DNA from: a bacterium
GTDB taxonomy: Bacteria > SM23-81 > DAOVCL01
DNA: 30,277 nt
Direction: 5' to 3'
Assembly: GCA_029932675.1 (NCBI GenBank)
Contig: JAOZPP010000036.1
Span: 1-30,277, forward strand
The notes under the pieces are model-generated. The model was not told the origin of the DNA, made no database searches, and saw only the letters and a list, made by a program, of their open reading frames with translations. Shown one piece after another: positions 2,505 through 25,144 of this stretch (position 1 is the first letter of the stretch; the number at the start of each line of letters is the position of its first letter). The position numbers and the translations under genes were made by a program.

Positions 2505-2695
2505 TCACCGGGGAAACGAGGATAGAAGAGGTATTGGAGGAATATCCGCAAACGGTGAGGGTTTTCACTAAATTTGGCCTTCCCTGTTTTGTCTGTGGGG
2601 AACCAGCCTGGGGAACGGTAGGTGATATTGCTTCCCGCTATGGAGTAGACTTAGATGAGCTCTTGGTAGCCCTTAACCAAGCCAAAGGAGGCTAA
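2501..2695 (+). CDS. DUF1858 domain protein (CxxC)
   Basis: The 64-residue protein fits the DUF1858 family of small helical domains. These occur alone or fused to ScdA/hemerythrin and redox proteins. The family hallmark 'YPQTVRVFTKFGLPCFVCG' includes C29-x-x-C32, and the C-terminal 'DIASRYGVDLDELLVALN' is a short helix. The Cys pair may bind a metal or act in redox chemistry, but the role is not established. The ATG overlaps the PilZ stop (ATGA), making it the third gene of the operon. Its TAA overlaps the TAG of pilR on the opposite strand, so the two operons converge with no space between them. Confidence 0.85.
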   Translation: MITGETRIEEVLEEYPQTVRVFTKFGLPCFVCGEPAWGTVGDIASRYGVDLDELLVALNQAKGG

Positions 2696-4056
2696 GAGGG
2701 GGAAAGATTATACCTTTCGATCTTTCTATAAAGGGTAGAAGGATCAATCCCCAAGATCTCCGAGGCCCTGCTCTTCTGCCATTTGGTTTCCTTCAGCACC
2801 CAATAGATGTAAGCCTTCTCTACTGTCTCCATCGTGGGAAGGGCAGAGGTATCCTTCCTGACCAGTTGCGGCGGAGGAGGGTTCCGCAAACCCTCTGGCA
2901 GTTCATTGGGTTTAATCTCCTTGCCCTTGGCTAAAACTACTGCTCTCTCCAAGACATTTTCCAGCTCCCGCACGTTCCCTGGCCAAGAATAGCCCAACAT
3001 TAGCTGCAGAGCTTCTGGAGAGAGGCTCTTCACCTTTCCAGTGGCTTGCGCATACCTCTGGAGAAAGGCATTGGAGAGAAGTTCTATATCTTCTTTTCTT
3101 TCTCTCAAAGGGGGAATGTAAAGGGGTATCACATTAAGTCTGTAGAAGAGATCAGATCTGAACCTCCCAGTCTTTACCATTGCCTCTAAGTCCGCATTGG
3201 TTGCCGCGATCAACCGCACATCTACGGGGATTGGTTTTGTGCCTCCCACTGGGGTAATCTCCCTCTCCTCTAATACCCTGAGGAGTTTGACCTGAATGGA
3301 AAGGGAGGTCTCCCCTACCTCATCCAAGAAGAAGGTTCCCTTATCGGCCACCTTAAAGAGCCCCTCCTTATCCTTGACTGCTCCAGTAAAGGAACCCTTG
3401 ATATGCCCAAATAACTCACTCTCCAAGAGGTTTTCCGGGAGGGCGGCACAGTTTATAGAGACAAACGGCCCAGAGAACCTTCGGGAACAGTTGTGGATAG
3501 CCCTGGCGATAAGCTCCTTTCCCGTCCCGCTCTCTCCATAGATGAGCACCGTACTTTCGGTGAGGGCTATCTTCCGGGCAATCTCCTTTAACTCTATGGC
3601 TTTTTGGCTATTACCAATAAAATCGCTAAAATCAAAATCCTTTTTGATCCTCCTCTTTAGCTCCCTGTTCTCCTGGGTTAACCTCCTCCGTTCAATGGCC
3701 CTCTCCACGGCCAGCTTTACCTCTTCAACCTTAAATGGCTTGGTGAGGTAATCGTTTGCCCCCATCTTTAACGCTTCTATAGCCGTATCTAAGGAGGCAA
3801 AGGCGGTTAAAACTATAAAGCTGAGTTGGGGATCTAACTCACGCACTTTGGAGAGCAACTCCAACCCGCTCATTTGGGGCATCCGTAAGTCGGCAATTAC
3901 CAGATCAAATGGTGATTTTCCTAAGAGATTGAGGGCTTGGAGGCCATCAGAGGCCGTTGCTACCTCATAATTTTCCTTCTTCAAGGTGAAGGAGAGGACC
4001 TGCAGGAGGCTCTCCTCATCATCGACCACCAGTATCTTCCCTCTATTCCCGGACAT
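2692..4056 (-). CDS. pilR: Sigma-54-dependent response regulator, PilR-like
   Basis: This is an NtrC-family activator of sigma-54 RNA polymerase. From the ATG at 4056 the order is: receiver domain with phospho-acceptor Asp56 ('VIADLRMP') and 'TKPF'; AAA+ ATPase with Walker A 'GESGTGKE' (about 174-181) and a GSFTGA loop at 221-226 where most members have GAFTGA; and a Fis-type helix-turn-helix ('KSRASEILGIDPSTLYRKI'). ATG 4056 is preferred over ATG 4068 because it has AGGAG upstream. The gene overlaps the PilS gene. PilR classically activates pilus genes from sigma-54 promoters, and a consensus one lies upstream of this gene block (17224-17239). The symbol rests on context and architecture, not on sequence alignment. 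Confidence 0.88.
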   Translation of the reverse strand: MSGNRGKILVVDDEESLLQVLSFTLKKENYEVATASDGLQALNLLGKSPFDLVIADLRMPQMSGLELLSKVRELDPQLSFIVLTAFASLDTAIEALKMGANDYLTKPFKVEEVKLAVERAIERRRLTQENRELKRRIKKDFDFSDFIGNSQKAIELKEIARKIALTESTVLIYGESGTGKELIARAIHNCSRRFSGPFVSINCAALPENLLESELFGHIKGSFTGAVKDKEGLFKVADKGTFFLDEVGETSLSIQVKLLRVLEEREITPVGGTKPIPVDVRLIAATNADLEAMVKTGRFRSDLFYRLNVIPLYIPPLRERKEDIELLSNAFLQRYAQATGKVKSLSPEALQLMLGYSWPGNVRELENVLERAVVLAKGKEIKPNELPEGLRNPPPPQLVRKDTSALPTMETVEKAYIYWVLKETKWQKSRASEILGIDPSTLYRKIERYNLSPS

Positions 4057-5683
4057 CCCGCTCCTCATCTAAGGTGAGTATAAAAGTCGTCCCCTTCCCC
4101 ATCTGGCTCTTCACCTCTATCTGCCCACCATGTTCCTCCATAATCCTCTCCGCAATGGAAAGGCCCAATCCTGTTCCCCCTCTCTTGGTGGAGAAGAAGG
4201 GTTGAAATATCTTTTCCCTCACCGAGGGGGAGATCCCCCGACCATTGTCGCTTACCGCTAATCTTATCTTCCCATCCCTTGAATGGAGAGCTTCAAACCT
4301 CAACCATCCTTCCCCTTCCAAGGCCTCCAAACCATTTAGCCCAAGGTTGAAGAGGACCTGCTTTAACTGATCTTCGTCCCCCTTTACCCAAAGCGGTTTA
4401 TCCCCCAACTTTACCTCTATCCTCGGCTCTGGAGGTCTCACTGGTTCCTTCTTGAGAAGGGTAGCTACTTGATTAACTAATTCCCTTAGATCCAAGATCT
4501 CAAATTTTCCCTTACCCGGTCTGGCGAAGGAGAGAAAATCCTGGAGGATTCCATTTAGCCGATCTGACTCCTTTACGATGAGATCCATCAGCTTTCCTTC
4601 TTCGCCATCCAACTTGAGTTCGCTCTTTAAGACCTCTACCGATCCCCTAATGGAGGAGAGGGGATTTCTGATCTCATGGGCCACATTGGCTGAAAGCTGG
4701 CCCACAGCAGCAAGCCGATCAGCCTTCCTCATCTTCTCTTCCAGCTTCTTCACCTCGCTAAGGTCTTGAAATACGGCAATTACCCCTCTAATACCCTTCT
4801 GATTGTCCCTCAATACGGAGGTGTTTATCCCCACTGGTATCTGCCCCTTCTCCCCTTGGATAAGTAACTCCCCCCTTGATTCACCCTTTCCGCTATAGAG
4901 GGACTCCCTCATTAACTCTCCCAGTTCAGGAAAACAGGGGGAGATGACTTCTTCAAAACTCCTCCCCACCACTTCCTCCCTCTGCTTACCCAGGATCTCC
5001 TCAGCGGTGCGATTGAAATAGACTATCCTTCCACTCTGACCAAGAGTTATTAGACCACTCCTCATATGCTGGAGGATGTCATCAGTCTCTAACTTCGCCC
5101 TTTTCAACTGAAAGGAGGCACTCCTCAGCTCCTCCGCCCTCTCCTTCAACCTCTCAGCCAAAAACCCACTGAGAAAGGCAGCCAGAAAGAAAAAACAGAT
5201 ATAAAGGTAAAGGGCAAGGAAGATCTTGTCCACTGGATAGCTGATCGATCCTACTGGCTTAGCGAGTATGCCTTTGTTCTCCAGCCAGATGATCAGCTCA
5301 TAGAGCAAGCCAGCCCAGGTGGCCACAATGAGCCCCCCTCTCAATCCAAAGAGTATGCTTCCATTGATGATGGAAAAGATAAAGAGGAGGACGAAGGGGC
5401 TAGCCACTCCACCTGAGTAGTGGATTATCCCCCCCTCTAAGAGCACCTCAAAAAAGAGCTGAAAGCCCAGAAAAAAGGGATAAGGGGTCCCTTCCCCTAT
5501 CTTGCTCCCGCGACGGAGGGCAAAGAGGTAGACCAACGTCCCCAGGCCATAGAGGACTAAAAGCAGATAGAGGAGGCTCTCCTTACGGAGAAAGAGGAAG
5601 ATGGCTCCACAAATGAGGAGGAAGATCACCAGCCTGGAGACCAAAAGCCACTTGAACCTGCTTAAATCATCGTTCCTCTGCAC
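4043..5683 (-). CDS. pilS: PilS-like sensor histidine kinase (6 TM, PAS, HisKA, HATPase)
   Basis: This 546-residue membrane kinase should phosphorylate the adjacent PilR. Six hydrophobic segments fill residues 10-180, the layout of the PilS sensor module, which in Pseudomonas senses pilin in the inner membrane. A PAS domain follows at about 200-310 ('GRIVYFNRTAEEILG'). The HisKA domain carries the phospho-acceptor His336 in 'SANVAHEIRNPLSS'. The ATPase has 'NLGLNGLEALEG', 'DNGRGISPS' and 'GGTGLGLSIAERI'. The start is GTG with a weak ribosome site. It is the second-last gene of the block, 72 bp after pilC. The kinase class is certain; the PilS name depends on the six-TM module and the pilBTC neighbours. 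Confidence 0.9.
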   Translation of the reverse strand: MQRNDDLSRFKWLLVSRLVIFLLICGAIFLFLRKESLLYLLLVLYGLGTLVYLFALRRGSKIGEGTPYPFFLGFQLFFEVLLEGGIIHYSGGVASPFVLLFIFSIINGSILFGLRGGLIVATWAGLLYELIIWLENKGILAKPVGSISYPVDKIFLALYLYICFFFLAAFLSGFLAERLKERAEELRSASFQLKRAKLETDDILQHMRSGLITLGQSGRIVYFNRTAEEILGKQREEVVGRSFEEVISPCFPELGELMRESLYSGKGESRGELLIQGEKGQIPVGINTSVLRDNQKGIRGVIAVFQDLSEVKKLEEKMRKADRLAAVGQLSANVAHEIRNPLSSIRGSVEVLKSELKLDGEEGKLMDLIVKESDRLNGILQDFLSFARPGKGKFEILDLRELVNQVATLLKKEPVRPPEPRIEVKLGDKPLWVKGDEDQLKQVLFNLGLNGLEALEGEGWLRFEALHSRDGKIRLAVSDNGRGISPSVREKIFQPFFSTKRGGTGLGLSIAERIMEEHGGQIEVKSQMGKGTTFILTLDEERDVRE

Positions 5684-5755: not shown

Positions 5756-6955
5756 TCAGTGGATAGCCCCAATGAGATCAAACATGGGAAGGTACATCGA
5801 GATCAGGATGAACCCGATGACTATTCCCATAACCACTATCACCACTGGCTCTATTATAGAGGTGAGAGCACCCACGGCGGCATCAACCTCATCTTCATAG
5901 AAATCTGCTACCTTACCCAACATCTCGTCAAGGCCTCCCGTCTTCTCCCCCACAGAGATCATCTGGACTACCATTGGGGGGAATACCCCAGTATCCTTCA
6001 GGGGCTGCGCAATGGTATCCCCCTGGGCAATGGCAGTAACCGCCCGCCGGATGGCGTTGTAGATAACTTTGTTTCCCGCTGTTTTGGCGGTGATCTCCAA
6101 GGAATCCAGAATGGGAACCCCACTCTGTAAGAGCGTCCCCAAGGTGCGACTGAACCTGGCAATTATGCTCTTGCGCAGTAGATTCCCAATTATGGGGATC
6201 TTGAGTTTGAACCTATCGATGGCCAGCTTCCCAGAGGGGGTCTTATTGAGCCAGCGGAAACCTATCCCCAGTCCAATCAGGGCCACGATTCCGATGATGA
6301 AGTTAGACCTCAAGAAAGCACTTAAGCCCAAAACCATCTTAGTGGGAAGGGGTAGCTCAGCACCAAAACCTTGGAAGAGCTTGGCAAAAACCGGAACGAT
6401 AAAGGTAACCAAAAAGAGAGTAGCCCCGGTGGCCACCACGCTAATCACTGCTGGGTAGTACATCGCCCCCTTGATCTTCCTCCGAAGGGCATCGACCTTC
6501 TCCCTATAGGTCGCCAACCTCAAGAGGATCGTATCCAGAGCTCCCCCAACCTCCCCAGCTTCTACCATATTGATGAAGAGTTCATCGAAGATCTTCGGAT
6601 GCTTGCTCAGGGCCTCGGCCAAAGTTGAACCACTCTGCACCCTCTCCTTGACATTATTCAGGGCCTTCTTCAAACTAAGGTTCCCCGTCTGTTCGGAGAG
6701 GACATTCAAGGACTCCACCAAGGGGAGTCCAGCCTCAATCATTGTGGCGAACTGTCTGGCCATCCGAGAAATCTCCGTGGACTTAACCCCCCGACCAATA
6801 TGGATGTGGATCTCCTTGGGCTTAGCCCTGGCCTCGGTGACCAACACCCTCTTCTTCCTGAGAACCCTCCGCACCTCATCCTTGGAGCGGGCGGTTATCT
6901 CCCCACTCACTTCCACTCCGGAGAGGGTCTTTCCTACATATTCAAAAACAGGCAA
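5756..6955 (-). CDS. pilC: Type IV pilus inner-membrane platform protein PilC
   Basis: The 399-residue protein belongs to the PilC/GspF family, the inner-membrane platform that couples the PilB and PilT motors to pilin assembly. The N-terminus 'PVFEYVGKTLSGVEVSGEI' is the usual cytoplasmic lead-in. Two GspF repeats follow ('FATMIEAGLPLVESL' and 'FSRTLGTLLQSGVPIL'), with long hydrophobic segments after each, one at the extreme C-terminus. The start is TTG at 6955: the strong AAAGGAGGT lies five bases upstream, whereas the next in-frame TTG (6973) would place that ribosome site inside the coding region. It follows pilB and pilT, so the motor, retraction and platform genes are together. No pilin, secretin or alignment (pilMNOPQ) genes are in the window. 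Confidence 0.95.
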   Translation of the reverse strand: MPVFEYVGKTLSGVEVSGEITARSKDEVRRVLRKKRVLVTEARAKPKEIHIHIGRGVKSTEISRMARQFATMIEAGLPLVESLNVLSEQTGNLSLKKALNNVKERVQSGSTLAEALSKHPKIFDELFINMVEAGEVGGALDTILLRLATYREKVDALRRKIKGAMYYPAVISVVATGATLFLVTFIVPVFAKLFQGFGAELPLPTKMVLGLSAFLRSNFIIGIVALIGLGIGFRWLNKTPSGKLAIDRFKLKIPIIGNLLRKSIIARFSRTLGTLLQSGVPILDSLEITAKTAGNKVIYNAIRRAVTAIAQGDTIAQPLKDTGVFPPMVVQMISVGEKTGGLDEMLGKVADFYEDEVDAAVGALTSIIEPVVIVVMGIVIGFILISMYLPMFDLIGAIH

Positions 6956-7084
6956 GGCATACCTCCTTTTCAACTACTAATTGTAGAATCAGCTTGATCA
7001 CCGCGGGGTAGGCAGTGAGTCCTTTCCTTATACCCTCTCTAGTTAAATACTTGATCTGTAAGGCTCTGTATCTTATGGGTTAAC

Positions 7085-8152
7085 CTAAACTGCCCGCCTC
7101 CGCACCAACATCTCCTTTAGTTCCTGTGGATTTGTGGAACGAGTAAGTGCATCCTCTATGCTTATCTTCCGCGCCAGGTGGAGCTCCATTAGGGACTGAT
7201 TCATCGTCCTCATCCCATACTTCTGGCCTGCCTGGATGAGGCTGTATATCTGATGAATTTTGTCATCCCGGATCATCGCCCTTACCGCAGGGGTACAGAC
7301 CATCACCTCTGTGGCTAACACCCTTCCTCCCCCAATCCGCGGAATGAGCTGCTGAGAGACAACTGCCTGGGTCACAAAGGAGAGCTGTATCCTCACCTGC
7401 TCCTGCTTCTCCTTAGGAAATACATCGATTATCCTCTTAATAGACTCTATTGCCGAACCAGTGTGGAGGGTGGCAAAGGCCAGATGACCCGTCTCGGAGA
7501 TGGTCAAGGCCGATTCCATAGTCTCCAGATCCCTCATCTCCCCGATCATCACCACATCTGGGTCTTGCCTGAGGGCATACTTTAAGGCCTGGGCAAATGA
7601 CTCGGTATCCGCCCTAACCTCCCTTTGATTTATTAGGCAGTTGTTGTGTTTGTGGAGGTATTCAATGGGGTCTTCCACGGTAAGGATATGCAGTTTCCTT
7701 TCCCTGTTTATCCTATCCAGAATAGCAGCAAGGGTGGTGGATTTCCCTGATCCAGTGGGGCCAGTAATTAGGACAAGGCCATGAGGGAGGTAGGCAAGAT
7801 CAGCAACCTGCTTGGGGATTCCCAACTCCTCGAACGAGCCTATTTCAAAGGGAATCTGTCTGATGGCCGCGGCGACGCATCCCCTTTGCAAAAAGATGTT
7901 GCACCTAAACCTCGATTTGCCCTCCAGACCAAAGGAGAGGTCGAGTTCCTTGTTCTCCTCGAACCTCTGCTTCTGTTTTTCGGTCATCATACTGTAGGCA
8001 AGCCTCTTGGTATCCTCTGGGTTTAGAGGCGGGTATTGGGATCTGACCAGGCTTCCATCCACCCTAAACATCGGAGGAGCACCTACTGTGAGATGGAGGT
8101 CAGAGGCCTTAAGCCTAAACATCTCCTCCAGTAAGTCCCTTAAAGTTAACAA
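7085..8152 (-). CDS. pilT: Type IV pilus retraction ATPase PilT
   Basis: The 355-residue hexameric ATPase powers pilus retraction and so twitching motility. Visible elements are the N-terminal 'LLEEMFRLKASDLHLTVG', Walker A 'GPTGSGKS' (131-138), the Asp box around 'TVEDPIEY', Walker B 'DPDVVMIGEMRD' (197-208), the His box 'LAFATLHTG', and 'VRAMIRDDKIHQI', a variant of the AIRNLIRE retraction motif. Length is normal for PilT. The start is TTG at 8152 behind AAAGGAGGGA. It lies 67 bp downstream of pilB and 129 bp upstream of the chosen pilC start. In Myxococcus, PilT localisation is governed by MglA, whose homologue is encoded a few genes upstream. Confidence 0.95.
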   Translation of the reverse strand: MLTLRDLLEEMFRLKASDLHLTVGAPPMFRVDGSLVRSQYPPLNPEDTKRLAYSMMTEKQKQRFEENKELDLSFGLEGKSRFRCNIFLQRGCVAAAIRQIPFEIGSFEELGIPKQVADLAYLPHGLVLITGPTGSGKSTTLAAILDRINRERKLHILTVEDPIEYLHKHNNCLINQREVRADTESFAQALKYALRQDPDVVMIGEMRDLETMESALTISETGHLAFATLHTGSAIESIKRIIDVFPKEKQEQVRIQLSFVTQAVVSQQLIPRIGGGRVLATEVMVCTPAVRAMIRDDKIHQIYSLIQAGQKYGMRTMNQSLMELHLARKISIEDALTRSTNPQELKEMLVRRRAV

Positions 8153-8219: not shown

Positions 8220-9914
8220 TCATTGGTTGCTCGCCGTCTCCCCCAAGACCTCCTCCACCGTTGTTATCCCCTTCTTCAGCTTCTCTAAGGCCGCTTCCCT
8301 TAGGGTGAGCATCCCCTCTTCCCGCGCGGCTACCTGAATCTCCTGGGAGGACTTGCCTTCCAATATTAGCCTCTCTATCTTACCCGTTATCGGCATAACC
8401 TCATAGGCTGCCGTACGACCAGAGAAACCAGTATTATTACAGGCTGGACACCCCTTCCCCTTATAAAATTCCAACCCCTTCAGCTCTTCTGAGGAGAGGC
8501 CCAACCTCTGGAGGATCTCGTCGGAGACCTCCACCTTCTCCTTACAATGTTCGCATATCTTCCGGAAAAGCCTCTGGGCAATAATCATCCTCACCGATGA
8601 GGCAACCAGAAAAGTGGGAACCCCCATATCTACCAACCTATTGATCGTGCTGGGGGCATCATTTGTGTGGAGGGTACTAAAGACCAAGTGTCCAGTTAAG
8701 GCAGCCCGAATGGCGATTTCAGCCGTCTCTAAATCCCTTATCTCACCTACCATAATCACATCTGGATCCTGACGGAGGAAGGAGCGGAGGCTGGTGGCAA
8801 ATGTTAAGCCTATCTCCTGGTGCATCTGAACCTGATTTATCCCCTCGATATTGTACTCCACAGGGTCCTCTGCAGTCATTATGTTCACATCGGATTTGTT
8901 TAACTGGCTTAGGGCTGAATAGAGCGTAGTGGTCTTTCCACTTCCCGTGGGGCCGGTAACCAAGATCATCCCATAGGGCTGATGGATGGCGTAATCAAAG
9001 AGCTGCAACGAGCGTTCGGGGAAGCCGAGTTTGGTCAGATCGAGCATTAGGCTCTTCGGGTCCAAAATCCTCATCACTACCTTCTCCCCAAATATAGTGG
9101 GAATGGTGGAGACCCGTAAATCGATCTTCCGCCCCCCCACCTTCACCTTTATCCTCCCATCCTGAGGCCTCCTCCTTTCCGATATGTCCAAGTTAGCCAT
9201 TATCTTTATCCTGGAGACCACAGCAGCCCTCAATTTATAAGGGAGGGGGGCCATCTCCTGCAGGGTTCCATCTATCCTATACCTCACCCGCAGTCTTTTT
9301 TCATAGGTCTCTATATGGATATCACTTGCTTTCCGCTTTATGGCATCTGTAATCAGACCATCAACTAACCTCACTAAAGGTTTGTCCTCAATAGCCGATT
9401 TCAGTTCCTGCTCATCGAGGCTTTCCTCCTCCACAATCTCCAGGTTCTCCATATCGAGGTCCTCCATTAACCTGGAGAGGGACTCTGAGTCATCATAATA
9501 GTGATCTAAAGCGTTTTTTATATCATTTTCATTGCTAATGACCAGTTGCACATTAAATCCGGTGATGAACTTGATCATATCCATCACGAATATGTTCTCC
9601 GGATCCGATATGGCCACAATTAAGGTCTTTCCCAGTTTGCTAATAGCGATGACATTGAACTTGCGCGCTATATCCACAGGGATAAGCTTCACCACCTCGG
9701 GGTTAAGCTCGATCTCTGTCAGATTGAGACTACCGATATTTAGCTGACGCCCCAGAAATTCGGTAATGACGTTCTCATCCTTCACCGCCCCCATCTCTAC
9801 CAAGATCTGACCTATCTTCCCACCCTTCTCCTTCTGGATGGAGAGGGCCTTCTCCAGTTGTTCCTGGGTTATCTTCCCTGCCTTCACCAGCAGACTACCT
9901 AATTTGCTGGCCAA
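8220..9914 (-). CDS. pilB: Type IV pilus extension ATPase PilB
   Basis: This 564-residue GspE/PilB ATPase drives pilin polymerisation. The N-terminus is MshEN-like: two similar units at residues 4-27 and 33-57 ('KLGSLLVKAGKIT' and 'KIGQILVEMGAV') are separated by five residues, as in the c-di-GMP-binding MshE N-domain. Both begin with Lys where the MshE motif has Arg. The core has 'SDIHIE', Walker A 'GPTGSGKT' (321-328), Walker B 'DPDVIMVGEIRD' and a four-Cys zinc site (C454-x2-C457, C489-x2-C492). The TTG start at 9914 follows GGAGGAG. It lies after mglB, placing the polarity switch directly before the motor genes. Confidence 0.95.
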   Translation of the reverse strand: MASKLGSLLVKAGKITQEQLEKALSIQKEKGGKIGQILVEMGAVKDENVITEFLGRQLNIGSLNLTEIELNPEVVKLIPVDIARKFNVIAISKLGKTLIVAISDPENIFVMDMIKFITGFNVQLVISNENDIKNALDHYYDDSESLSRLMEDLDMENLEIVEEESLDEQELKSAIEDKPLVRLVDGLITDAIKRKASDIHIETYEKRLRVRYRIDGTLQEMAPLPYKLRAAVVSRIKIMANLDISERRRPQDGRIKVKVGGRKIDLRVSTIPTIFGEKVVMRILDPKSLMLDLTKLGFPERSLQLFDYAIHQPYGMILVTGPTGSGKTTTLYSALSQLNKSDVNIMTAEDPVEYNIEGINQVQMHQEIGLTFATSLRSFLRQDPDVIMVGEIRDLETAEIAIRAALTGHLVFSTLHTNDAPSTINRLVDMGVPTFLVASSVRMIIAQRLFRKICEHCKEKVEVSDEILQRLGLSSEELKGLEFYKGKGCPACNNTGFSGRTAAYEVMPITGKIERLILEGKSSQEIQVAAREEGMLTLREAALEKLKKGITTVEEVLGETASNQ

Positions 9915-10039: not shown

Positions 10040-10516
10040 CTAATCCCCAAATATCTGGTCAAGCCTCTCCTCGGCTTGGTTGGCGAATCCAACCTCAATC
10101 CCCTCCCCCTCTTCAAACTTAGCAGTGAGTATCTCCTCCAATTCCCCTTGGGCTTCCCGCACATAAAGCCTGACCATCCCAATGGTTGTTCGGTCATCGA
10201 AGACAACGCCCAAAATGCTCCTTTCACCTACTAAAGAAACTAAAATGTTATCCTTCTTCCCTTCGTGGAAGAGAACACTAAACTCCGATTCTCCCAAGAG
10301 CTTGGCCATCTCCTTAGTGGAAGCGAAACTCCCAGCCAAGAGGGCGGCCAAACTGGTGGTATCCAGGGAGTGGGTGAAACCCTGTTTGGCGATCAGATAG
10401 CCATCCTTGTCAACCAGAAGTGAACACCTTGCCTCACTCTCCCGTAAAAGCTTCTTTAATACCCCGTTTATTCTCTCAAATTGCCCCTTATAGATAACCG
10501 ATATTCCCTCATTCAC
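10040..10516 (-). CDS. mglB: MglB-type Roadblock/LC7 protein (probable GAP for MglA)
   Basis: The 158-residue Roadblock/LC7 protein closely resembles Myxococcus MglB as I recall it. Shared features are 'LLVDKDGYLIAKQG', 'DTTSLAALLAG', 'AKLLGESEF', 'FHEGKKDN' and 'RTTIGMVRL', the same length, and an acidic C-terminus ending '-DQIFGD'. MglB is the dimeric GTPase-activating protein that stimulates MglA and marks the lagging pole. The start is GTG 10516, because GAGGAGG lies five bases upstream; the ATG at 10543 would put that site inside the frame. It follows mglA by 74 bp and precedes pilB. Of the seven Roadblock proteins here, it is the only one I can assign to a named subfamily. Confidence 0.9.
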   Translation of the reverse strand: MNEGISVIYKGQFERINGVLKKLLRESEARCSLLVDKDGYLIAKQGFTHSLDTTSLAALLAGSFASTKEMAKLLGESEFSVLFHEGKKDNILVSLVGERSILGVVFDDRTTIGMVRLYVREAQGELEEILTAKFEEGEGIEVGFANQAEERLDQIFGD

Positions 10517-10541
10517 TTTTGCCTCCTCTCTTGGACGTAGC

Positions 10542-10568
10542 ATTATAGGGATTAGAGCACCTCAGCAA
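10542..10568 (-). promoter_or_regulatory. Candidate internal sigma-70 promoter before mglB
   Basis: A perfect -10 box (TATAAT, 10542-10547 on the minus strand) lies about 25 bp upstream of the mglB GTG. The best -35 candidate, TTGCTG at 10563-10568, is poor and the spacer is only 15 bp. It could give extra expression of mglB-pilB-pilT-pilC, but this is weakly supported. Confidence 0.3.
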
Positions 10569-10590: not shown

Positions 10591-11418
10591 TCATTTCTTA
10601 GATCTCCAAAACCTGAAGAGCCGCCAGAGGAAAAAACCCCTCCTCTGCGGGCTCTCTACTTGTTTCCTCACCGGCATGGGCTTCTGCGGGGGGTGAAAAC
10701 TCAAGGGGCTTATCCGGTGGGGATGTAATTCCTCACCCGGGGCCGCTCTGGCAACTGGAGAAGGGTGATGGGGCTCCACCTGTTTAGGGGAGACGGGTTT
10801 AGGAGGGGGAGGAGGACTGGGAGGGGGCATCGCATCCCGGTGAGTCGTCTTCTCTAAAACCAGCTTTGAAATGGATTTGAGGGTCTCAAAAACCCCCACT
10901 CCTCTGTTGGCCACCGCCTCAAAGAAGGGGACATCCCTCCAGTTGAGGAGTTTATTGAGCTCGTCTACAGATGCTCTATCCGGGAGGTCGCGCTTATTGT
11001 ATTGGAAAACCAGGGGAATATCCTCCAGCCTATACCCATATTCGCTCAGGTTTTCCTCTAAATTTTGCAGGCTTTCTAAATTCTCCTTTAGCTTATCCCT
11101 TTGCGAATCAGCCACAAAGACTATCCCATCAGCCCCCCGGAGGACAAGCCTCCGTGTAGCATTGTAGTAGACCTGTCCCGGGACGGTGTATAACTGAAAC
11201 TTGGTAGCAAAACCTTGAATTGAACCCAAATCTAAAGGGAGAAAATCAAAGTAAAGGGTCCTATCCTTCTCCGTAGCTAAGGAGATTAGCTCCCCCCGCC
11301 GCTCCCGGGGTATCTTCTGATGAACCCACTGGAGATTGGTCGTCTTCCCGGAAAGGCCGGGACCATAATAGACTATCTTACACGAAATCTCCCTAAAGGC
11401 ATAATTTATGGAGACCAA
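10591..11418 (-). CDS. mglA: MglA-type Ras-like GTPase with proline-rich, basic-aromatic C-terminal tail
   Basis: Residues 1-190 are a bacterial small Ras-like GTPase of the MglA family: P-loop 'GPGLSGKT' (19-26), switch I with Thr54 in '[11 protein letters not shown]', G3 '[12 protein letters not shown]' with Gln82 at the catalytic position known from Myxococcus MglA, '[12 protein letters not shown]', and G4 'NKRD' (141-144). MglA in the GTP state binds effectors at the leading pole and switches pilus polarity. Unlike the roughly 195-residue classical protein, this one is 275 residues. Residues 196-258 are rich in Pro and His, and the last 16 ('[17 protein letters not shown]') look like a basic, aromatic, potentially membrane-binding helix. 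Start TTG 11418 overlaps the preceding Roadblock gene by 13 bp, with GGGGAGGA upstream. Confidence 0.93.
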
Positions 11419-11771
11419 TTCTCTTCCTCCCCAAGTTTGGCATTTAGCCTCTGAAGGGTGTTCTTTAATTCCAGCCAGACAAGCCCCAAGTTGGCCTCCG
11501 GTTCAGTAAGTGCAACCAATAGCCCAAGCTCGGCCCCCACAAAGAGCACCCTCCCCCACTGACCAGAGACCATCCCTTTGATCACCGGCCCAGAATCCAA
11601 CTTGGAAAGGGATCTCTCTGCTGTCTTCAGAAGGGAAACCGTCTCCGCGGCAACGACCTCTTGGTCTATCCCCTCTTCCACCTCAGAGGCAATTACCATT
11701 CCATCTGTCCCCACGACCATGCTTCCCCTCACCCCACTTAATTTATTCAACTGTGCCAGAGCTTCTTCCAT
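11406..11771 (-). CDS. Roadblock/LC7 domain protein
   Basis: The 121-residue single-domain protein has the Roadblock pattern: an N-terminal helix '[14 protein letters not shown]', a strand pair '[16 protein letters not shown]', a central helix of small residues ('[14 protein letters not shown]'), then '[16 protein letters not shown]' and a final helix. It overlaps mglA, so the two are likely coupled in translation and perhaps partners. It begins two bases after the TPR-Roadblock stop codon (TAAA-ATG). Roadblock proteins dimerise and bind Ras-like GTPases as GAPs or scaffolds. Whether this one acts on MglA is inference. It is distinct from the MglB encoded on the other side of mglA. Confidence 0.85.
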
Positions 11772-11772
11772 T

Positions 11773-12546
11773 TTAACTCTTCCTCAAGGTTTCAATCGCC
11801 TTCCCCACCCTGAGTTTGAGGGAAGCGGGGGAAACATTCTTCTCGGTAAGGAGAACCAGATAGCCAAAGGAGGAGTCGAAAAGCCAGAGTCTATGGGCCA
11901 CAGTAGTGAGCTCTATCTCCTGCGTGGGCCCAAACTCCATCTTTTTCATCCCGTTCTCTGCGGAGTTGTAGATAGCTGCTCCGGCTACAGCCAACTCCTC
12001 GGGCCTCCCCTCCCCCCAATCTCCCCCAAAGAGGAGCCCCTCCCTATCCACCAAGGCCACCCCCTCTACCCCTGGCTCCTTATAGAGGCTGGCTATCACC
12101 TCAGCCATTAGCCTTCCCCCCTTCCTCTGGGACCTAACCCTCTCCTCAGCCACCCTGAGAAGTGCGATCACCTGCTCATTTGCGGGCTGAGAAAGGGAAA
12201 GCTCTTCCAATAACTCTTTGGCCTGCTCTATCTTACCCCTTTTGAGAAGGAGACTAGCCCTCAATAGACCCACACTTCCTGAGGGGAGACCGTGTTCACT
12301 GACCCAGTCGACCTCATATTCGGCCTCATCGAGAAGGTTCATATCCAAGAGTATCTTCGCCATAACTAAGTGGGCTAAGCCATAATGGGGGTGAACCTTA
12401 AGTCCTGCTTCACAGACCTTATGGGCTTTGTCCAGCATCCCCTTCTTTCGGTAGGCATCAGCCAAGGAGGCAAAGATCGTCGAGTGGGGATTTTGGGCTA
12501 AAATCCTCTGACAGGTAAATATCCTTTCTTCAAGCTCGTCCAACAC
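11773..12546 (-). CDS. TPR protein with C-terminal Roadblock/LC7 domain
   Basis: The 257-residue fusion has two parts. Residues 1-140 form about four tetratricopeptide-like helix pairs ('IFASLADAYRKKGMLDKAHKVCEAGL', cut here into 'ASLADAYRKKGMLDKA', and 'AHLVMAKILLDMNLLDEA'). Residues 143-257 form a Roadblock domain ('VEGVALVDREGLLF', 'AVAGAAIYNSAENGMKKM', 'FGYLVLLTEKNVS'). TPR repeats bind protein partners, so this could link the GTPase system to another component. The frame opens at GTG 12546; TTG at 12543 is a close alternative with better spacing from AAGGAG. It overlaps the HAMP gene by 17 bp and is followed immediately by the single-domain Roadblock gene. No partner can be named. Confidence 0.8.
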   Translation of the reverse strand: MLDELEERIFTCQRILAQNPHSTIFASLADAYRKKGMLDKAHKVCEAGLKVHPHYGLAHLVMAKILLDMNLLDEAEYEVDWVSEHGLPSGSVGLLRASLLLKRGKIEQAKELLEELSLSQPANEQVIALLRVAEERVRSQRKGGRLMAEVIASLYKEPGVEGVALVDREGLLFGGDWGEGRPEELAVAGAAIYNSAENGMKKMEFGPTQEIELTTVAHRLWLFDSSFGYLVLLTEKNVSPASLKLRVGKAIETLRKS

Positions 12547-13240
12547 TCGCTCCTTTCCCCAACCTCTCTAAGGCCGTTTGAAGGCTAATCCTCAGCCTAT
12601 CGGTTGCCTGGGCTAACCTTCCTATCTCATCTTCGGAATCTATGGTTATTCCCTCCTCCATACTCCCCAAGCTCACCCTCTCGGTAACCTGGGCCAACCA
12701 GAGGAGCCTCTTAGACAACCTCTGGGCAAAGAGGAAGATCAATATCCAAGAGAAGAGAAGGGCCCCTCCAAGAAACCCCATTATCCAGTAATCCATTGAT
12801 TTCTGAACCAGAGGAGAGAGGCCGAGATAAACGGTTCCCAAGGTCCCTTCCAGAATAGGGATGGTAAGCTCATATCTCCCTTTGGGGGTAACCTGGGAGC
12901 TACCCTCACCGTTCCCCTCGGTGATGAGTTCAATCCTCCTCTGATCCCGCAGGGTGTTGGCCCTGACCCTCCCTTGCTGATCCGTGATCAGGATATAGGA
13001 AACCCCCTTTATGGCGGCAAACCTTTCTACCAATTCCCTCAGTTCTATATCCGATCCTCGAACCAAGTATCCCTCGCTCTGTAGGGCCAGATCCTTCCCC
13101 AACACCACCCCCCTCTCCCGCAAATTTTCTGCCAATATCCTCTGGTGGGTGTATCTATATCCCACCAGACCAGAGAGGGCCACAAGGAAGGTTAAACCCA
13201 AACCAAGGAGGGTTATCTTTCCTCTTAGTCCTAATCTCAT
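12530..13240 (-). CDS. Membrane receptor with periplasmic sensor and HAMP, no output domain
   Basis: The 236-residue protein has a TM helix at about 8-28 and a periplasmic region of about 135 residues containing a Cache/PAS-like stretch ('GVSYILITDQQGRVRANTL' and 'IPILEGTLGTVYLGLSP'). A second TM helix lies at about 165-188, followed by a HAMP domain ('WLAQVTERVSLGSM', 'SEDEIGRLAQATDRL') at the C-terminus. It resembles the front half of a chemoreceptor or histidine kinase, but it stops right after HAMP. Output would then have to pass to a partner protein, plausibly the overlapping TPR-Roadblock product. ATG 13240 is chosen because it forms an ATGA overlap with the upstream stop; the frame is open further upstream to 13357, but that part lies inside the neighbouring gene. 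Confidence 0.83.
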   Translation of the reverse strand: MRLGLRGKITLLGLGLTFLVALSGLVGYRYTHQRILAENLRERGVVLGKDLALQSEGYLVRGSDIELRELVERFAAIKGVSYILITDQQGRVRANTLRDQRRIELITEGNGEGSSQVTPKGRYELTIPILEGTLGTVYLGLSPLVQKSMDYWIMGFLGGALLFSWILIFLFAQRLSKRLLWLAQVTERVSLGSMEEGITIDSEDEIGRLAQATDRLRISLQTALERLGKGASVGRA

Positions 13241-14370
13241 CTTTCTCTCCCGGAAAATTCTACCGGAATAGTGGTCCAAAACCTTACCCTCCTCCCCTGA
13301 TAACAACCAGGGGAAAACCTCCACCCCTTCACAAATTCCAGAGCTATACCAGCACATTTCTCATCAAGATTAGAGCTGAGCATAGCCGTCTCCGTAACTT
13401 TCCCTTCTTCATCGACCCAAGCCTTGACGATCACCTCCCCCTTACACCTTCCATCAATCGGAGCTGGCGGTTGCTCGATGACCCGGGGGAGGCTGTCTAA
13501 AATTCCCACGGCAACAGGGTCTGGCTCCTTCTCAATTAGCTCTGCGGACCCGGCAACTGAATCAGGTGAGAAGGCAAGGGAAACAAAGTCAACCTCCCCT
13601 GAATTGGCATCCTCTTCATCATCATATATCCTTTCATCGATCTGGGATGGTTGGTTTCCTGTCCAGAAGTTCCCTTTAGCCTGAATTTTAAGGGAGGAAA
13701 GGTTGTAAATATCATACTTGAGGTTATCGGAGATCAGATTGCCCCCATCTTCCCTTGAGGAACCAAGGAAAGGGCAAGATTGATCGAGGATGACAATCCC
13801 ATATGGGTTTTCCCTGACCTGACATCCCTTGACCACAGGGCGGGAGAGGTATTTGCAAATGATCCCTACCTCACCGTTTCCCCATATCTGGCAGCCTTCA
13901 ACTAAAGGGGCTGAACGATTAATACAGCTTATTCCACATCTTAAATTGTGACAGAAGCTGTCGTTTTTTAGCAAAGGGGAGGAGGCCAAACAATAGACTC
14001 CATAGTTGCCCCATTCAATTAAGCAGTTCTCTAAGACAGAGCCAGAATCTGAGGCCCTGAATTCAACCCCCCACCAATCCCCCATCTGAGGATTTGCCGA
14101 AGCGGAGGTAAAGCTAATCTTCTCTTTATTCCCCCCCCTGGCTATTAGCTTCCCCAGTACGAGTATCTTTAACCTCTCATCCTTAGGGACGAACTTGACA
14201 ACTGAACCAGGGGCTATCCGCAAGGTTACCCCTGAGGGTATAATTAGGGTGGACCCTAACACCACCTCACCCTTCCAGGCAGCATCTCCCCTTAATACCA
14301 TCGATCCCCCACTTCCTCCCCCCAAAAAAGCTATCAATAGGATACTACTAATCACCAGTGGCTTTCTCAT
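13237..14370 (-). CDS. Exported beta-helix protein with C-terminal TonB domain
   Basis: The 377-residue protein starts with a signal peptide ('MRKPLVISSILLIAFLGGG', possibly cleaved near 'GDA' at 28-30). A right-handed beta-helix follows at about 35-260, with 'GVTLRIAPGSVVKF', 'SVLENCLIEWGNYGV', 'SAPLVEGCQIWGN' and 'GNFWTGNQPSQI', resembling the T9SS gene at 21-869. An acidic/Pro linker then leads to a TonB C-terminal domain at 302-377 ('GEVIVKAWVDEEGKVTETAMLSS', shown here as 'VDEEGKVTETAMLSS', then 'GWRFSPGCYQGRRVRFWTTIPVEF'). TonB-C normally contacts outer-membrane receptors, but this protein lacks the usual TonB membrane anchor. It is joined by ATGA overlaps to the genes on both sides, so it belongs to the Roadblock operon. 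Function unknown; a periplasmic or outer-membrane role is inferred. Confidence 0.82.
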   Translation of the reverse strand: MRKPLVISSILLIAFLGGGSGGSMVLRGDAAWKGEVVLGSTLIIPSGVTLRIAPGSVVKFVPKDERLKILVLGKLIARGGNKEKISFTSASANPQMGDWWGVEFRASDSGSVLENCLIEWGNYGVYCLASSPLLKNDSFCHNLRCGISCINRSAPLVEGCQIWGNGEVGIICKYLSRPVVKGCQVRENPYGIVILDQSCPFLGSSREDGGNLISDNLKYDIYNLSSLKIQAKGNFWTGNQPSQIDERIYDDEEDANSGEVDFVSLAFSPDSVAGSAELIEKEPDPVAVGILDSLPRVIEQPPAPIDGRCKGEVIVKAWVDEEGKVTETAMLSSNLDEKCAGIALEFVKGWRFSPGCYQGRRVRFWTTIPVEFSGRER

Positions 14371-14948
14371 TCCAATCCTCTAAGGGTTCCCCTTATAAAC
14401 TCCTCCCTCTTCTCCGCGGTGGGGATCTCCTCGGAAATCTCCCTCACAATCCTTTCTCTCTCCTCGGAAGTGAGAGGCTCAGGCCAATTTTTCCTCTTCT
14501 CCTCCAAAATGTAGCCAGCTATGGGGCCCACTGCCCGTTTTAGTTCTTTTTCCAAGGTCATCCACCACTGAGCATCCCCAACCTCCAATACCTCCTTCTG
14601 GCTGACCTCTCCTTGGAACTGATTCCTCAAATCTTGAATCTGTAGCCCGGTGGAAAGCCTAAGGAGAACAGGGTTTATCTTTGGGGTGTGAAAAAGACAC
14701 AAAAACCCCCTTTCCAAGTTCTTGATGAGAGCCCTCTCCTTCCCGAAATTGATCTCTACTTCCTCCACCTTCTCCCCTATTCCCTCAAGACCAAAGATAG
14801 ACCTGGCCAAAATGGATGTGGCCTTAGCTACTTTACCTTCCCTTCCCCCCTCCCGCAGGGAGGAGGCCAAAAGCCTACCTTCCCGGTCACTGAGGAAGAC
14901 CTCAATTATCCCAGGAATGCTCCCTATTCTCTTTACTATCTCCTCCAT
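14367..14948 (-). CDS. Roadblock/LC7 protein with C-terminal 'GPIA' helical domain
   Basis: Residues 1-110 match the Roadblock fold ('MEEIVKRIGSIPGIIEVFLSD', shortened: 'RIGSIPGIIEVFLSDREG', 'AKATSILARSIFG', 'GFLCLFHTPKINP'). Residues about 125-193 form a second, helical domain with 'LEKELKRAVGPIAGYILEE' and 'EERERIVREISEEIP...KREEFIRGTL'. This resembles small C-terminal domains carrying a GPIA motif that occur on some bacterial kinases and cyclases, whose function is not known to me. ATG 14948 is preferred: AAAGGGTGA sits upstream and the start matches the sister protein at 11771. GTG 14957 is the alternative. The gene overlaps both neighbours. Role inferred only from context. Confidence 0.8.
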   Translation of the reverse strand: MEEIVKRIGSIPGIIEVFLSDREGRLLASSLREGGREGKVAKATSILARSIFGLEGIGEKVEEVEINFGKERALIKNLERGFLCLFHTPKINPVLLRLSTGLQIQDLRNQFQGEVSQKEVLEVGDAQWWMTLEKELKRAVGPIAGYILEEKRKNWPEPLTSEERERIVREISEEIPTAEKREEFIRGTLRGLE

Positions 14949-14949
14949 C

Positions 14950-16176
14950 TCATTCACCCTTTAAGAAGGTTCTCGCCTCTTCTTCCAACCTCCCCCTCTC
15001 AGCTCCTTCCTCAAGGAGGAGACCAAAATAGAGGCACCTCCCTTCCATGATGAGGAGCCTACCATCCTTTACCTCCACCCAGCAAGACTCTGGCTTGCCC
15101 AACTCCAGAAGATCGGAGGCCTGAGAGATCGCCCCCCCTAAATAGAGCGAAGTTGCCCCCCAGAGGTCGGTAAGGCGGGAGGAGTCTGGACCCTCTAAAC
15201 TTGACCCTAAGACAACTCCATCCTTGGCCACAACAACAGCCCCCTTTACCCCTTCTATTCCTTTGAGCTTATAGGAAAGGTCGGCATATTTGCTCCTCCC
15301 TTCCCCCTGAGGAAGACCTTCTGGCGGGGCTACTTCTCGAGGTGAAGGCTGTTGTTCGGAGGAGGGTTCCTTCTGGGGATCTCCCTCTATGGAGCGGTTC
15401 GGCTCATCTATGGTTGATTCCTCTATGTGAGGGGCCGCGTCTACCCTATCCTCTTCATACTTTATCTGCTCGGCTTTCATATTCTCATCAAGGATTTGAC
15501 TCCCCCGAAGAAGGAGGGCTTGCCAGTCAGCATAGATCGTCCTGGGGGGAGGCTGGAATTGATCCCTTGTCTCAAACTTACCCTCTTGCCAACCCAATAA
15601 CTTGAAGAATGCTTCCTCGCCCACCAATTCCCCACATCGGGCATGGGTTATCTCACCGCCCTGAAAGTAGATCTCCCCTTCCTCTCCATTAAAGGAGACC
15701 TTCAGGGCACAAGTAAGTTTCCCCAGACAGTTTATCTGGATTATGTCATTAAGTTGGAGGCCATTTCCCTTCTCTTGAATGGCCTTCTTAGATGGCCTTC
15801 TCTTCTTTAATGCCTTGTGAAGTAACTCCTCCATCTCCTCCATCTCAAATGGCTTCTCTATATAATAGAGCGAACCAGAGGTAACGGCTTTCTGCTGAAT
15901 CTGTGGGGATCCATAAGCAGTCATCACAATCACATCAATGGAAGGATAGGTAGCTTTTATCCTACTCAAGAGCTTCAATCCATCCATCCCCGGCATCCTG
16001 ATATCGGTGATCACCAGGTCAATTGGATTCTTCTCCAGGACCTCCAGCGCCTCATCGCCAGTGGTCGCCGTGAGGACTTCCAAGTTTCCATGGGCCTTGG
16101 AGAGGCTCTTAGACATCCCCCAAGTGAGCGTCTCCTCATCATCCACAATCAGAACTCTGTTTTTAGCCCTACTCAT
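14950..16176 (-). CDS. Response regulator: REC + DUF4388 + Roadblock/LC7
   Basis: This 408-residue protein combines three domains. Residues 1-125 are a receiver with acidic pocket 'VDDEE', phospho-acceptor Asp58 ('VITDIRMPGMDG') and 'MTAYG...EKPF'. Residues about 138-235 fit DUF4388/PatA-type ('LQLNDIIQINCLGKLT', 'GEIYFQGGEITHARCGELVGEEAFFKLLGW', cut: 'GEITHARCGELVGEEA'), a module found in gliding and heterocyst regulators. A charged, Pro/Glu-rich linker of about 65 residues leads to a Roadblock domain at about 305-405 ('GVKGAVVVAKDGVVLGSSL'). It could bring phosphorylation control to the GTPase/Roadblock complex, in a way analogous to RomR in Myxococcus but with different architecture. The start has AGGAGGGG five bases upstream. 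It follows the previous gene by 37 bp. Confidence 0.87.
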   Translation of the reverse strand: MSRAKNRVLIVDDEETLTWGMSKSLSKAHGNLEVLTATTGDEALEVLEKNPIDLVITDIRMPGMDGLKLLSRIKATYPSIDVIVMTAYGSPQIQQKAVTSGSLYYIEKPFEMEEMEELLHKALKKRRPSKKAIQEKGNGLQLNDIIQINCLGKLTCALKVSFNGEEGEIYFQGGEITHARCGELVGEEAFFKLLGWQEGKFETRDQFQPPPRTIYADWQALLLRGSQILDENMKAEQIKYEEDRVDAAPHIEESTIDEPNRSIEGDPQKEPSSEQQPSPREVAPPEGLPQGEGRSKYADLSYKLKGIEGVKGAVVVAKDGVVLGSSLEGPDSSRLTDLWGATSLYLGGAISQASDLLELGKPESCWVEVKDGRLLIMEGRCLYFGLLLEEGAERGRLEEEARTFLKGE

Positions 16177-16213: not shown

Positions 16214-16831
16214 TCAAACATAGACTTGAACCACATCTCCCTCTTTGGCACCTAACCTCCTGGCATCATGGGAAATCATTCTCACCACCTTTCCCAATCC
16301 CTTTTTATGCATAACCCTAAAAACCCTTACCTTCCCCCCCTTACGCACAGAGGCTCGGTGAACCTTTCCCTCCCCCTCCAGGCTCCACCCCTTTACTAGC
16401 TGTTCATCTACCCAGATCTGTCCCCCCTTCAGGGCCAAACCCTTCATATACTCCACCTTCAACTCCTGGGGCTCTATCCGGGGAGCCTTAGCCGATTCCA
16501 AGGACTGCTCTATCCTCTTGGCAGCCACATCTACAGTAAGGTTTAAAAGGGGGATGTTAATATCTTTACTGCACAATATGACTAACATCCCAGATCCAAT
16601 AACCCTAGCTATTACCCTCCCTTTGGCAAAGCAAAGGTCAAACTCCTCAGGGTTAACCTGGGCAAACCTCAGCGACCTCACCGTCTGAATTATCTCCCAG
16701 CTCACAGCCTTAAGGGACTCCTCGGGATAATTATTCTTGTCCACCGAGGAGAGTATTTCGCCTTTTCCATCGGCCACAAAGGAACCCTCCACCCCAACCA
16801 TAGCATTTATGTCCTTCAAGATCCCTTTCAT
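16214..16831 (-). CDS. Roadblock/LC7 protein with unassigned C-terminal domain
   Basis: The 205-residue protein begins with a Roadblock domain (1-115: 'MKGILKDINAMVGVEGSFVAD' type start, shortened 'DINAMVGVEGSFVADGKG', and 'GSGMLVILCSKDINIPLLNL'). The last 80 residues form a basic, beta-rich domain ('GKVHRASVRKGGKVRVFRV', 'GKVVRMISHDARRLGAKEGDVVQVYV'). The final 'ARRLGAKEGDVVQV' phrase recalls beta-barrel domains with an 'LGLKDGD-V' hairpin, as seen in AbrB-like and molybdopterin-dinucleotide-binding folds, but I do not assign it. It is joined by an ATGA overlap to the first gene of the operon. Binding partner and ligand are unknown. Confidence 0.78.
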   Translation of the reverse strand: MKGILKDINAMVGVEGSFVADGKGEILSSVDKNNYPEESLKAVSWEIIQTVRSLRFAQVNPEEFDLCFAKGRVIARVIGSGMLVILCSKDINIPLLNLTVDVAAKRIEQSLESAKAPRIEPQELKVEYMKGLALKGGQIWVDEQLVKGWSLEGEGKVHRASVRKGGKVRVFRVMHKKGLGKVVRMISHDARRLGAKEGDVVQVYV

Positions 16832-17163
16832 CTCCTCTCTTTACCTCCCATTCCTGCCTCGACCCGATCCTCTACAAGTGATAAGGATGCCTCAGGTTTG
16901 AGGGATAGGCCAAGGTAGTTTCCCTCCATATCATAGATCAACATCCTCCTGCCCGAGCCATGAAAGGATCCCTTTTCGAACTTCCCCAACTGCAACTTCT
17001 CCCCCACCTTTGAGGCCATCTGGGCAACAAATACAGCAAGTGCTGCCGTTTCTTCGGGATATCCCTTTCCACCTTGACCCAAAACAACTCCTTCCGGGGA
17101 GGAAAAGACCGTCTCCTTCACCTCCTCCAGTTGGGATAGGGATTGGGTTATCTTATCGAACAT
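16828..17163 (-). CDS. Roadblock/LC7-like protein, first gene of the operon
   Basis: The 111-residue protein shows the Roadblock outline: an N-terminal helix 'MFDKITQSLSQLEEVKETV', a beta pair 'FSSPEGVVLGQG', a central Ala-rich helix 'ETAALAVFVAQMASKVGE', a beta pair 'GRRMLIYDMEGNYLGLSLKP' and a final helix. It is divergent, so the assignment rests on length and pattern as well as on neighbours. AGGAGGT lies six bases before the ATG, and a consensus sigma-54 promoter lies about 60 bp upstream. Its stop overlaps the next start (ATGA). As promoter-proximal gene it would be the first translated component of the block. Confidence 0.75.
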   Translation of the reverse strand: MFDKITQSLSQLEEVKETVFSSPEGVVLGQGGKGYPEETAALAVFVAQMASKVGEKLQLGKFEKGSFHGSGRRMLIYDMEGNYLGLSLKPEASLSLVEDRVEAGMGGKERR

Positions 17164-17223
17164 TCCCCTACCTCCTCTCCTAATCTTCTTGTCCCCGTTA
17201 GCACCTTTCTTTTCCTTTATTTT

Positions 17224-17239
17224 TGCAAATTCTGTGCCA
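17224..17239 (-). promoter_or_regulatory. Sigma-54 (-24/-12) promoter of the Roadblock-MglA-pilus block
   Basis: On the minus strand the sequence is TGGCACAGAATTTGCA. It fits the sigma-54 pattern TGGCAC-R-N4-TTGCW at every defined position, with GG and GC exactly ten bases apart. The start site would fall near 17213, leaving a leader of about 50 nt before the ATG at 17163. Sigma-54 promoters need an NtrC-type activator; PilR, the last gene of the same block, is the obvious candidate. No activator binding site was identified upstream. Confidence 0.85.
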
Positions 17240-17357
17240 TTTCTCCATTTGGAGTCATTTAAATAAATCCCCTATTTTCAAGAGGATATAGAACCTCATC
17301 TGGTTTTCAAATCTTTCGCCTGATTGAAATTAGGCCATCTGCATAGGGGTATAAAAA

Positions 17358-17385
17358 GAAAATCCAGCTTAATAGCTGGATTTTC
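17358..17385 (-). terminator. Rho-independent terminator after comB
   Basis: GAAAATCCAGCT (17358-17369) and AGCTGGATTTTC (17374-17385) form a perfect 12-bp stem with a four-base loop. On the minus strand the stem ends in TTTTC and runs on into TTTTTAT. It lies about 50 bp past the comB stop and separates that transcript from the sigma-54-driven block. On the plus strand it also ends in TTTTC, so it could work both ways. Confidence 0.85.
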
Positions 17386-17434
17386 TGAAGGTTAAATGAA
17401 GGAAACCTTTCTGTGCGAAAATCGAACACTACCT

Positions 17435-24813: not shown

Positions 24814-24950
24814 CTTATTCCCTCCTCTAATCAGGGCCGATGGTTACTCCTATCCAGATCGAAGTCCCCATCCCGGCACACTCCCACTCACTATCCTTCC
24901 CCTATCCATATATCGGCAGATTGAAAGGAAACTTTAGCACTTTCTTCTCC

Positions 24951-25128: not shown

Positions 25129-25144
25129 TGGTATATTATTTGCT
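25129..25144 (+). promoter_or_regulatory. Candidate sigma-54 promoter for PilZ-kinase-regulator operon
   Basis: TGGTATATTATTTGCT matches the sigma-54 pattern at TGG, at the A of the CAC block, at R and at the whole TTGCT, with the required GG-N10-GC spacing. The two C residues of CAC are replaced by T. The ATG of the PilZ gene lies 91 bp downstream. The operon encodes a sigma-54 activator, so autoregulation is possible. Confidence 0.5.

Follow-up and report, generated by a model that had tools for sequence, protein, structure and literature searches.

In Pseudomonas aeruginosa and Geobacter sulfurreducens, the type IV pilin gene pilA is controlled by the PilSR two-component system together with sigma-54. 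The RpoN regulon of Geobacter sulfurreducens covers pilin and flagellar genes, and its consensus, TTGGCACGGTTTTTGCT, was reported alongside the sigma-54 consensus of the literature, mrNrYTGGCACG-N4-TTGCWNNw (PMC2725144). Pseudomonas aeruginosa PilSR also activates fleSR, and earlier work had implicated PilR, in Geobacter and Dichelobacter, in the control of genes outside the pilus system (PMC6058289). Because PilR control beyond pilA is thus known, the contrast drawn in the original prediction for the locus described here, with a classical PilR that acts on pilA and not on polarity genes, is too narrow. The second system of reference is the MglA-MglB module of Myxococcus xanthus, in which a Ras-like GTPase works with Roadblock proteins and is linked to type IV pili. 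The third is the flagellar sigma factor FliA (sigma-28), whose promoters have the form TAAA-N15-GCCGATAA.

The locus analysed here, from a Zixibacteria genome, resembles the PilSR-pilA systems in its PilS-type kinase, its NtrC-family activator and the sigma-54 sites before the pilin genes, with a motif nearly the same as the Geobacter consensus. Unlike in those systems, the predicted sigma-54 promoter also heads polarity and motor genes, and pilS-pilR stands at the end of the block. As in Myxococcus xanthus, a Ras-like GTPase lies beside Roadblock proteins and is connected with type IV pili, but the Roadblock-like proteins are more numerous (about seven) and the module is linked directly to pilB-pilT-pilC and pilS-pilR. 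In other Zixibacteria, the core operon follows a TAAR-N15-GTCGATAW site that resembles the FliA promoters, a site missing from the operon front in this genus. The kind of system is already known; its arrangement is new. A literature search for Zixibacteria with MglA and their regulation returned no paper. If the reading proposed below is true, the polarity switch and the pilus motors of an uncultured phylum would share their alternative sigma factor with the pilins, and the locus would offer a concrete case in which a conserved operon traded the sigma factor of one motility system for that of a second.

The sigma-54 element and the genes behind it

The window, that is, the whole stretch of 30,277 bp that was analysed, carries the 16-mer TGGCACAGAATTTGCA on its minus strand, from 17239 to 17224. 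Compared with TGGCACNNNNNTTGCW, this element has no mismatch; it agrees with all defined positions of TGGCAC-N5-TTGCW and combines the GG at -24 and the GC at -12 of a sigma-54 promoter with the exact spacing. It is the only exact consensus match in the window, where 0.01 would be expected from 100 dinucleotide shuffles. Its 3′ end lies 60 nt from the ATG at 17163, which places the predicted +1 near 17213. The full fit to the -24/-12 consensus put forward in the original prediction is thus confirmed, and the predicted start agrees with the position given there (17213). Further upstream, at 17310-17283, a weak sigma-70-like match (9/12) is of a type whose frequency is that of chance.

Downstream of the element, 15 minus-strand genes form one block from 17163 to 2692, with gaps of -121 to +125 nt, in the order of a Roadblock-like front block, MglA with its Roadblock partners, PilB-PilT-PilC and PilS-PilR. 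The first gene (16828..17163), encoding a 111 aa protein, had been called a Roadblock gene about 60 bp behind the element. The distance is right, but the label is weakly based, since this protein has no Pfam match above a family cut-off: Robl_LC7 reaches E = 0.1, and hhalign gives a probability of 33% against the Robl family of the operon. The sister orthologue reaches E = 2.8e-4 with Robl_LC7. The Roadblock assignment is clearer for the second gene (16214..16831), which encodes a 205 aa protein with an N-terminal Roadblock-like domain (hhalign 96.9% against the Robl3 family), and for the 196 aa Roadblock-like protein encoded at 14367..14957 (hhalign 78% against Robl3; Robl_LC7 E = 0.024). Between these two lies a response regulator-DUF4388-Roadblock protein (14950..16176; Pfam PF00072, PF14332 and PF03259, the last at 22.9 bits, just under its cut-off). 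They are followed by a beta-helix/NosD protein with a TonB C-terminal domain recognized by Pfam (13237..14370), overlapped by the next ORF when this is called from its longest start, and by a membrane sensor-like protein (12530..13357) with a weak Cache match (PF17203, below cut-off) and an end that looks HAMP-like by eye.

The core shared with other Zixibacteria begins with the TPR-Roadblock protein (11773..12546, Pfam). Next comes a Roadblock protein (11406..11771, PF03259) in the MglB-like position directly before the MglA-type Ras-like GTPase (10591..11418), which is recognized by the Pfam Ras and Arf families and is 58-77% identical to its Zixibacteria homologues; this adjacency of a Ras-like GTPase and a Roadblock protein characterizes the MglA/Roadblock polarity module. 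A further Roadblock protein (10040..10543, PF03259) precedes the pilus genes: the extension ATPase PilB (8220..9914; TIGR02538 above cut-off), the retraction ATPase PilT (7085..8152; TIGR01420 above cut-off) and the inner-membrane platform PilC (5756..6973), a T2SSF protein for which PilC models lead the NCBIfam matches, though without reaching their cut-offs.

At the end of the block, a PilS-type sensor kinase (4043..5683; 6TM_PilS above cut-off, HisKA, HATPase) overlaps by 26 nt an NtrC-family sigma-54 activator of the PilR type (2692..4068; Receiver, Sigma54_activat, HTH_8). A sensor and a sigma-54 activator are indeed what the original prediction had placed there, and the adjoining 6TM_PilS kinase and receiver/AAA+/HTH_8 partner constitute a PilS-PilR two-component pair. 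The name PilR is taken from the position beside PilS, no NCBIfam equivalog scoring over its cut-off for this protein.

Between comB and the promoter, an intrinsic terminator (17357..17386, minus strand) with a 13-pair stem followed by TTTTT, also kept in the sister metagenome-assembled genome (MAG), sets the operon apart from comB. The genes for MglA/Roadblock, PilB-PilT-PilC and PilS-PilR are probably transcribed as a single sigma-54 unit. Around pilB, pilT and pilC the gaps measure 67-125 nt, with 125 nt between the last Roadblock gene and pilB and 111 nt between pilT and pilC, which leaves room for internal promoters. A sigma-28-like site in the gap between the last Roadblock gene and pilB (9957, minus strand) was considered and rejected, given its weak -35 part and its loss in the sister.

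Conservation of the element and sigma-54 in the genome

In the sister MAG the order of all 15 genes is preserved, and the orthologous place holds an exact sigma-54 match, TGGCACAGATTTTGCA (G001:C32:18107-18122), one of only four in that genome. The element is identical at 15/16 positions, the sole difference being a spacer position, and the flanking DNA has diverged (65/100 identical upstream and 17/40 just downstream). The original prediction had named loss of the element from close relatives with a retained operon as an outcome that would count against it; since the sister keeps both the operon and the exact site, the prediction holds on this point. The sister leader is longer as called, with about 115 extra nt between element and start codon (L112, between 17930 and 18107). 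The extra stretch contains self-complementary parts, TGGTCAATGG...CCATTGATGATGG, and may be a mobile repeat of small size.

The genome (3.03 Mb, 116 contigs, 97% complete) contains one clear copy of rpoN (PF04552 at C108:69518-69985, E 1.3e-58). The genome-wide scan proposed with the original prediction, in which intergenic placement was judged from the individually examined loci, gave 95 sites when up to one mismatch was allowed, versus 23 for a reversed-pattern control. Together with the clear rpoN, this enrichment shows that the sigma-54 motif class is in use in this genome. Fourteen sites are exact, and 8/14 are followed after 10-250 nt by the start of a correctly oriented ORF of 60 aa or longer. 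Judged by sequence, exact sites lie 37 nt before a type IV pilin gene and 68 nt before the gene of a small heat-shock protein, and one-mismatch sites precede a flgG-like gene and the genes of two proteins with PEP-CTERM-like ends. The pilin genes are arranged in tandem, one with the exact site (C78:31164) and its neighbour with the one-mismatch site TGGCATACCATTTGCA (C78:30333).

Any lone consensus match may arise by chance, and many of the sites with up to one mismatch fall within coding sequence, so that TGGCACAGAATTTGCA could in principle be a sequence devoid of promoter function. Such a coincidence is highly improbable here: against it stand the 0.01 matches expected in the window, the correct distance and direction relative to the first gene and the retention of the element at the orthologous place in the sister. 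The presence of rpoN, the genome-wide enrichment of the motif, the sister's gene order and exact site, the terminator upstream, the short gaps within the block and the sigma-54 sites of the pilin genes argue instead that TGGCACAGAATTTGCA is very probably the main promoter of the operon, and we hold with good confidence that it would act as a true sigma-54 promoter for all 15 genes. Because both tandem pilin genes have sigma-54 sites as well, polarity genes, pilus motors and pilins are plausibly under shared sigma-54 control, as one regulon.

Candidate promoters of the core operon in other Zixibacteria

Most or all of the genes for TPR-Roadblock, Roadblock, MglA, Roadblock and PilB were found at 14 further Zixibacteria loci, many with PilT, PilC and PilS after PilB. 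The front Roadblock block of the present genus is absent from all 14. The gap before the TPR-Roadblock gene was examined in 13/14 loci, and none of these gaps contains a sigma-54 site, even with one mismatch allowed. TAAR-N15-GNCGATAW occurs there in 7/13 loci (shuffle mean 0.007) and GTCGATAW in 10/13 (shuffle mean 0.096); the seven include close relatives and so represent fewer than seven independent cases. In the present genus, TAAR-N15-GNCGATAW was found neither before 17163 nor in the sister. FliA scored above cut-off in each of the ten MglA-operon genomes searched and in neither of the two phylum members that lack MglA. These two genomes (G002 and G003), which lie outside the genus, had been considered as promoter controls and were set aside, both being without MglA.

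Flagellin scored over its cut-off in only 4/10 Zixibacteria genomes, and TAAR-N15-GNCGATAW was not seen in those flagellin upstream regions that could be read. These regions gave no confirmation of the motif; FliA is the presumed reader of the core-operon site in other Zixibacteria, given that the motif has the form of a FliA promoter and given the distribution of FliA. As separate observations, a one-mismatch sigma-54 site, TGGCATTAAAATTGCA, precedes a flagellin gene in another Zixibacteria genome (L239), and sigma-28-like sites TTAA-N15-GNCGATAA lie just before pilT at three Zixibacteria loci (L150, L159 and L160).

None of the five Zixibacteria loci that reach past pilS has pilR after it, and a pilR homologue of 57-62% identity is encoded elsewhere in the genome in 7/8 Zixibacteria genomes searched. 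The predicted sigma-54 promoter, the front Roadblock block and the operonic pilR are thus combined in this genus, and none of the three was seen at the other Zixibacteria loci as far as each could be examined. Coming from a single lineage, the co-occurrence of the predicted promoter and operonic pilR supports a functional link and does not prove one. Since the sigma-28-like site is the more widespread, it would have come first and the sigma-54 site later. It is conceivable, if somewhat doubtful, that the genus swapped a sigma-28-type for a sigma-54 promoter and gained the Roadblock front block and the operonic pilR, which would yield a single positive-feedback switch for polarity, motors and pilin supply.

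Candidate activators of the operon

In the explanation that we infer, transcription would start from TGGCACAGAATTTGCA and produce a single transcript. RpoN-RNA polymerase would bind the -24/-12 parts of the element and wait for an upstream-bound activator, whose identity is likewise a matter of inference; once bound, this activator would turn on polarity control, the pilus motors and the PilS-PilR pair together. It would plausibly sit at a conserved dyad, CCTAATT-TC-AATCAGG (17319..17334, minus strand), whose centre lies 87 nt from the -24 element on its upstream side. The dyad lies mostly inside a well-conserved intergenic block and is partly conserved in the sister; it is a candidate activator-binding site. 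A palindrome beside the -24 element, CTCCA-TT-TGGAG, was also considered as an activator site and discarded, being absent from the sister. Even with one mismatch allowed, the genome holds no second copy of the dyad, pilA included, so the dyad provides no link to pilA, and the search for a PilR-type site common to the operon and pilin promoters yielded none.

The likeliest single activator is the PilR encoded at the operon end, which would close a feedback loop. This candidacy stems from the place of PilR in the operon, and we give it a little less than even chances. The original prediction of one regulon with positive feedback through PilR is accordingly upheld in part: the promoter, the operon and the pilin sites speak for shared sigma-54 control, while the PilR loop is a possibility, with about 26 strong sigma-54 activator domains encoded in the genome and the dyad not found at pilA.

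The uniqueness of the dyad, absent near the pilin promoters and elsewhere in the genome, would also suit a PilR that acts on the pilin genes only, the operon promoter then answering to a different signal and supplying the motors as well as PilS-PilR, with no feedback. We regard this arrangement as unlikely; the missing common motif is weak evidence.

The window also encodes, beyond the operon, a PilZ-kinase-sigma-54 activator-FlgB block whose activator is of the flagellar type (FlrC/FleR-like, 26989-28356). About 90 nt before this block, on the plus strand, lies the sigma-54-like sequence TGGTATATTATTTGCT (25129-25144, 2 mismatches). On the minus strand, a close fit to a FliA promoter, TAAAGTTT-N11-GCCGATAT (24890-24936, with the -10 part from 24917), is found about 100 nt before a hybrid histidine kinase gene (22168-24813).

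This flagellar-type activator, or another of the about 26, is the alternative to PilR at the operon promoter, which would then belong to a late branch of a flagellar or surface hierarchy and not to a PilR self-loop. The nearby block with its own sigma-54-like site, the sigma-28-like site before the same core genes in other Zixibacteria and the distribution of FliA, which follows that of the MglA operon, all favour such a branch. The operon, however, itself encodes PilS-PilR, and activators often adjoin their targets, as noted for Geobacter (PMC2725144). We consider control by a flagellar-type or other activator a tentative but real possibility.

Among the sigma-54 activators of this genome, one type recurs as a cassette in at least seven copies (contigs C9, C18, C46, C104, C108, C109 and C111; loci L246, L247, L249 and L251-L254), for which no match to any known system was identified. 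Its core is an activator of 930-1030 aa; the one copy that was checked has TPR and GAF domains. A sigma-54 site lies about 190-290 nt past the activator stop in most copies, and a conserved leader comes next. Several copies continue with a basic/acidic protein of 53-59 aa ending in DW, and a secreted-looking protein often follows. Small proteins resembling that of 53-59 aa are also encoded near sigma-54 sites in the sister (L117 and L119).
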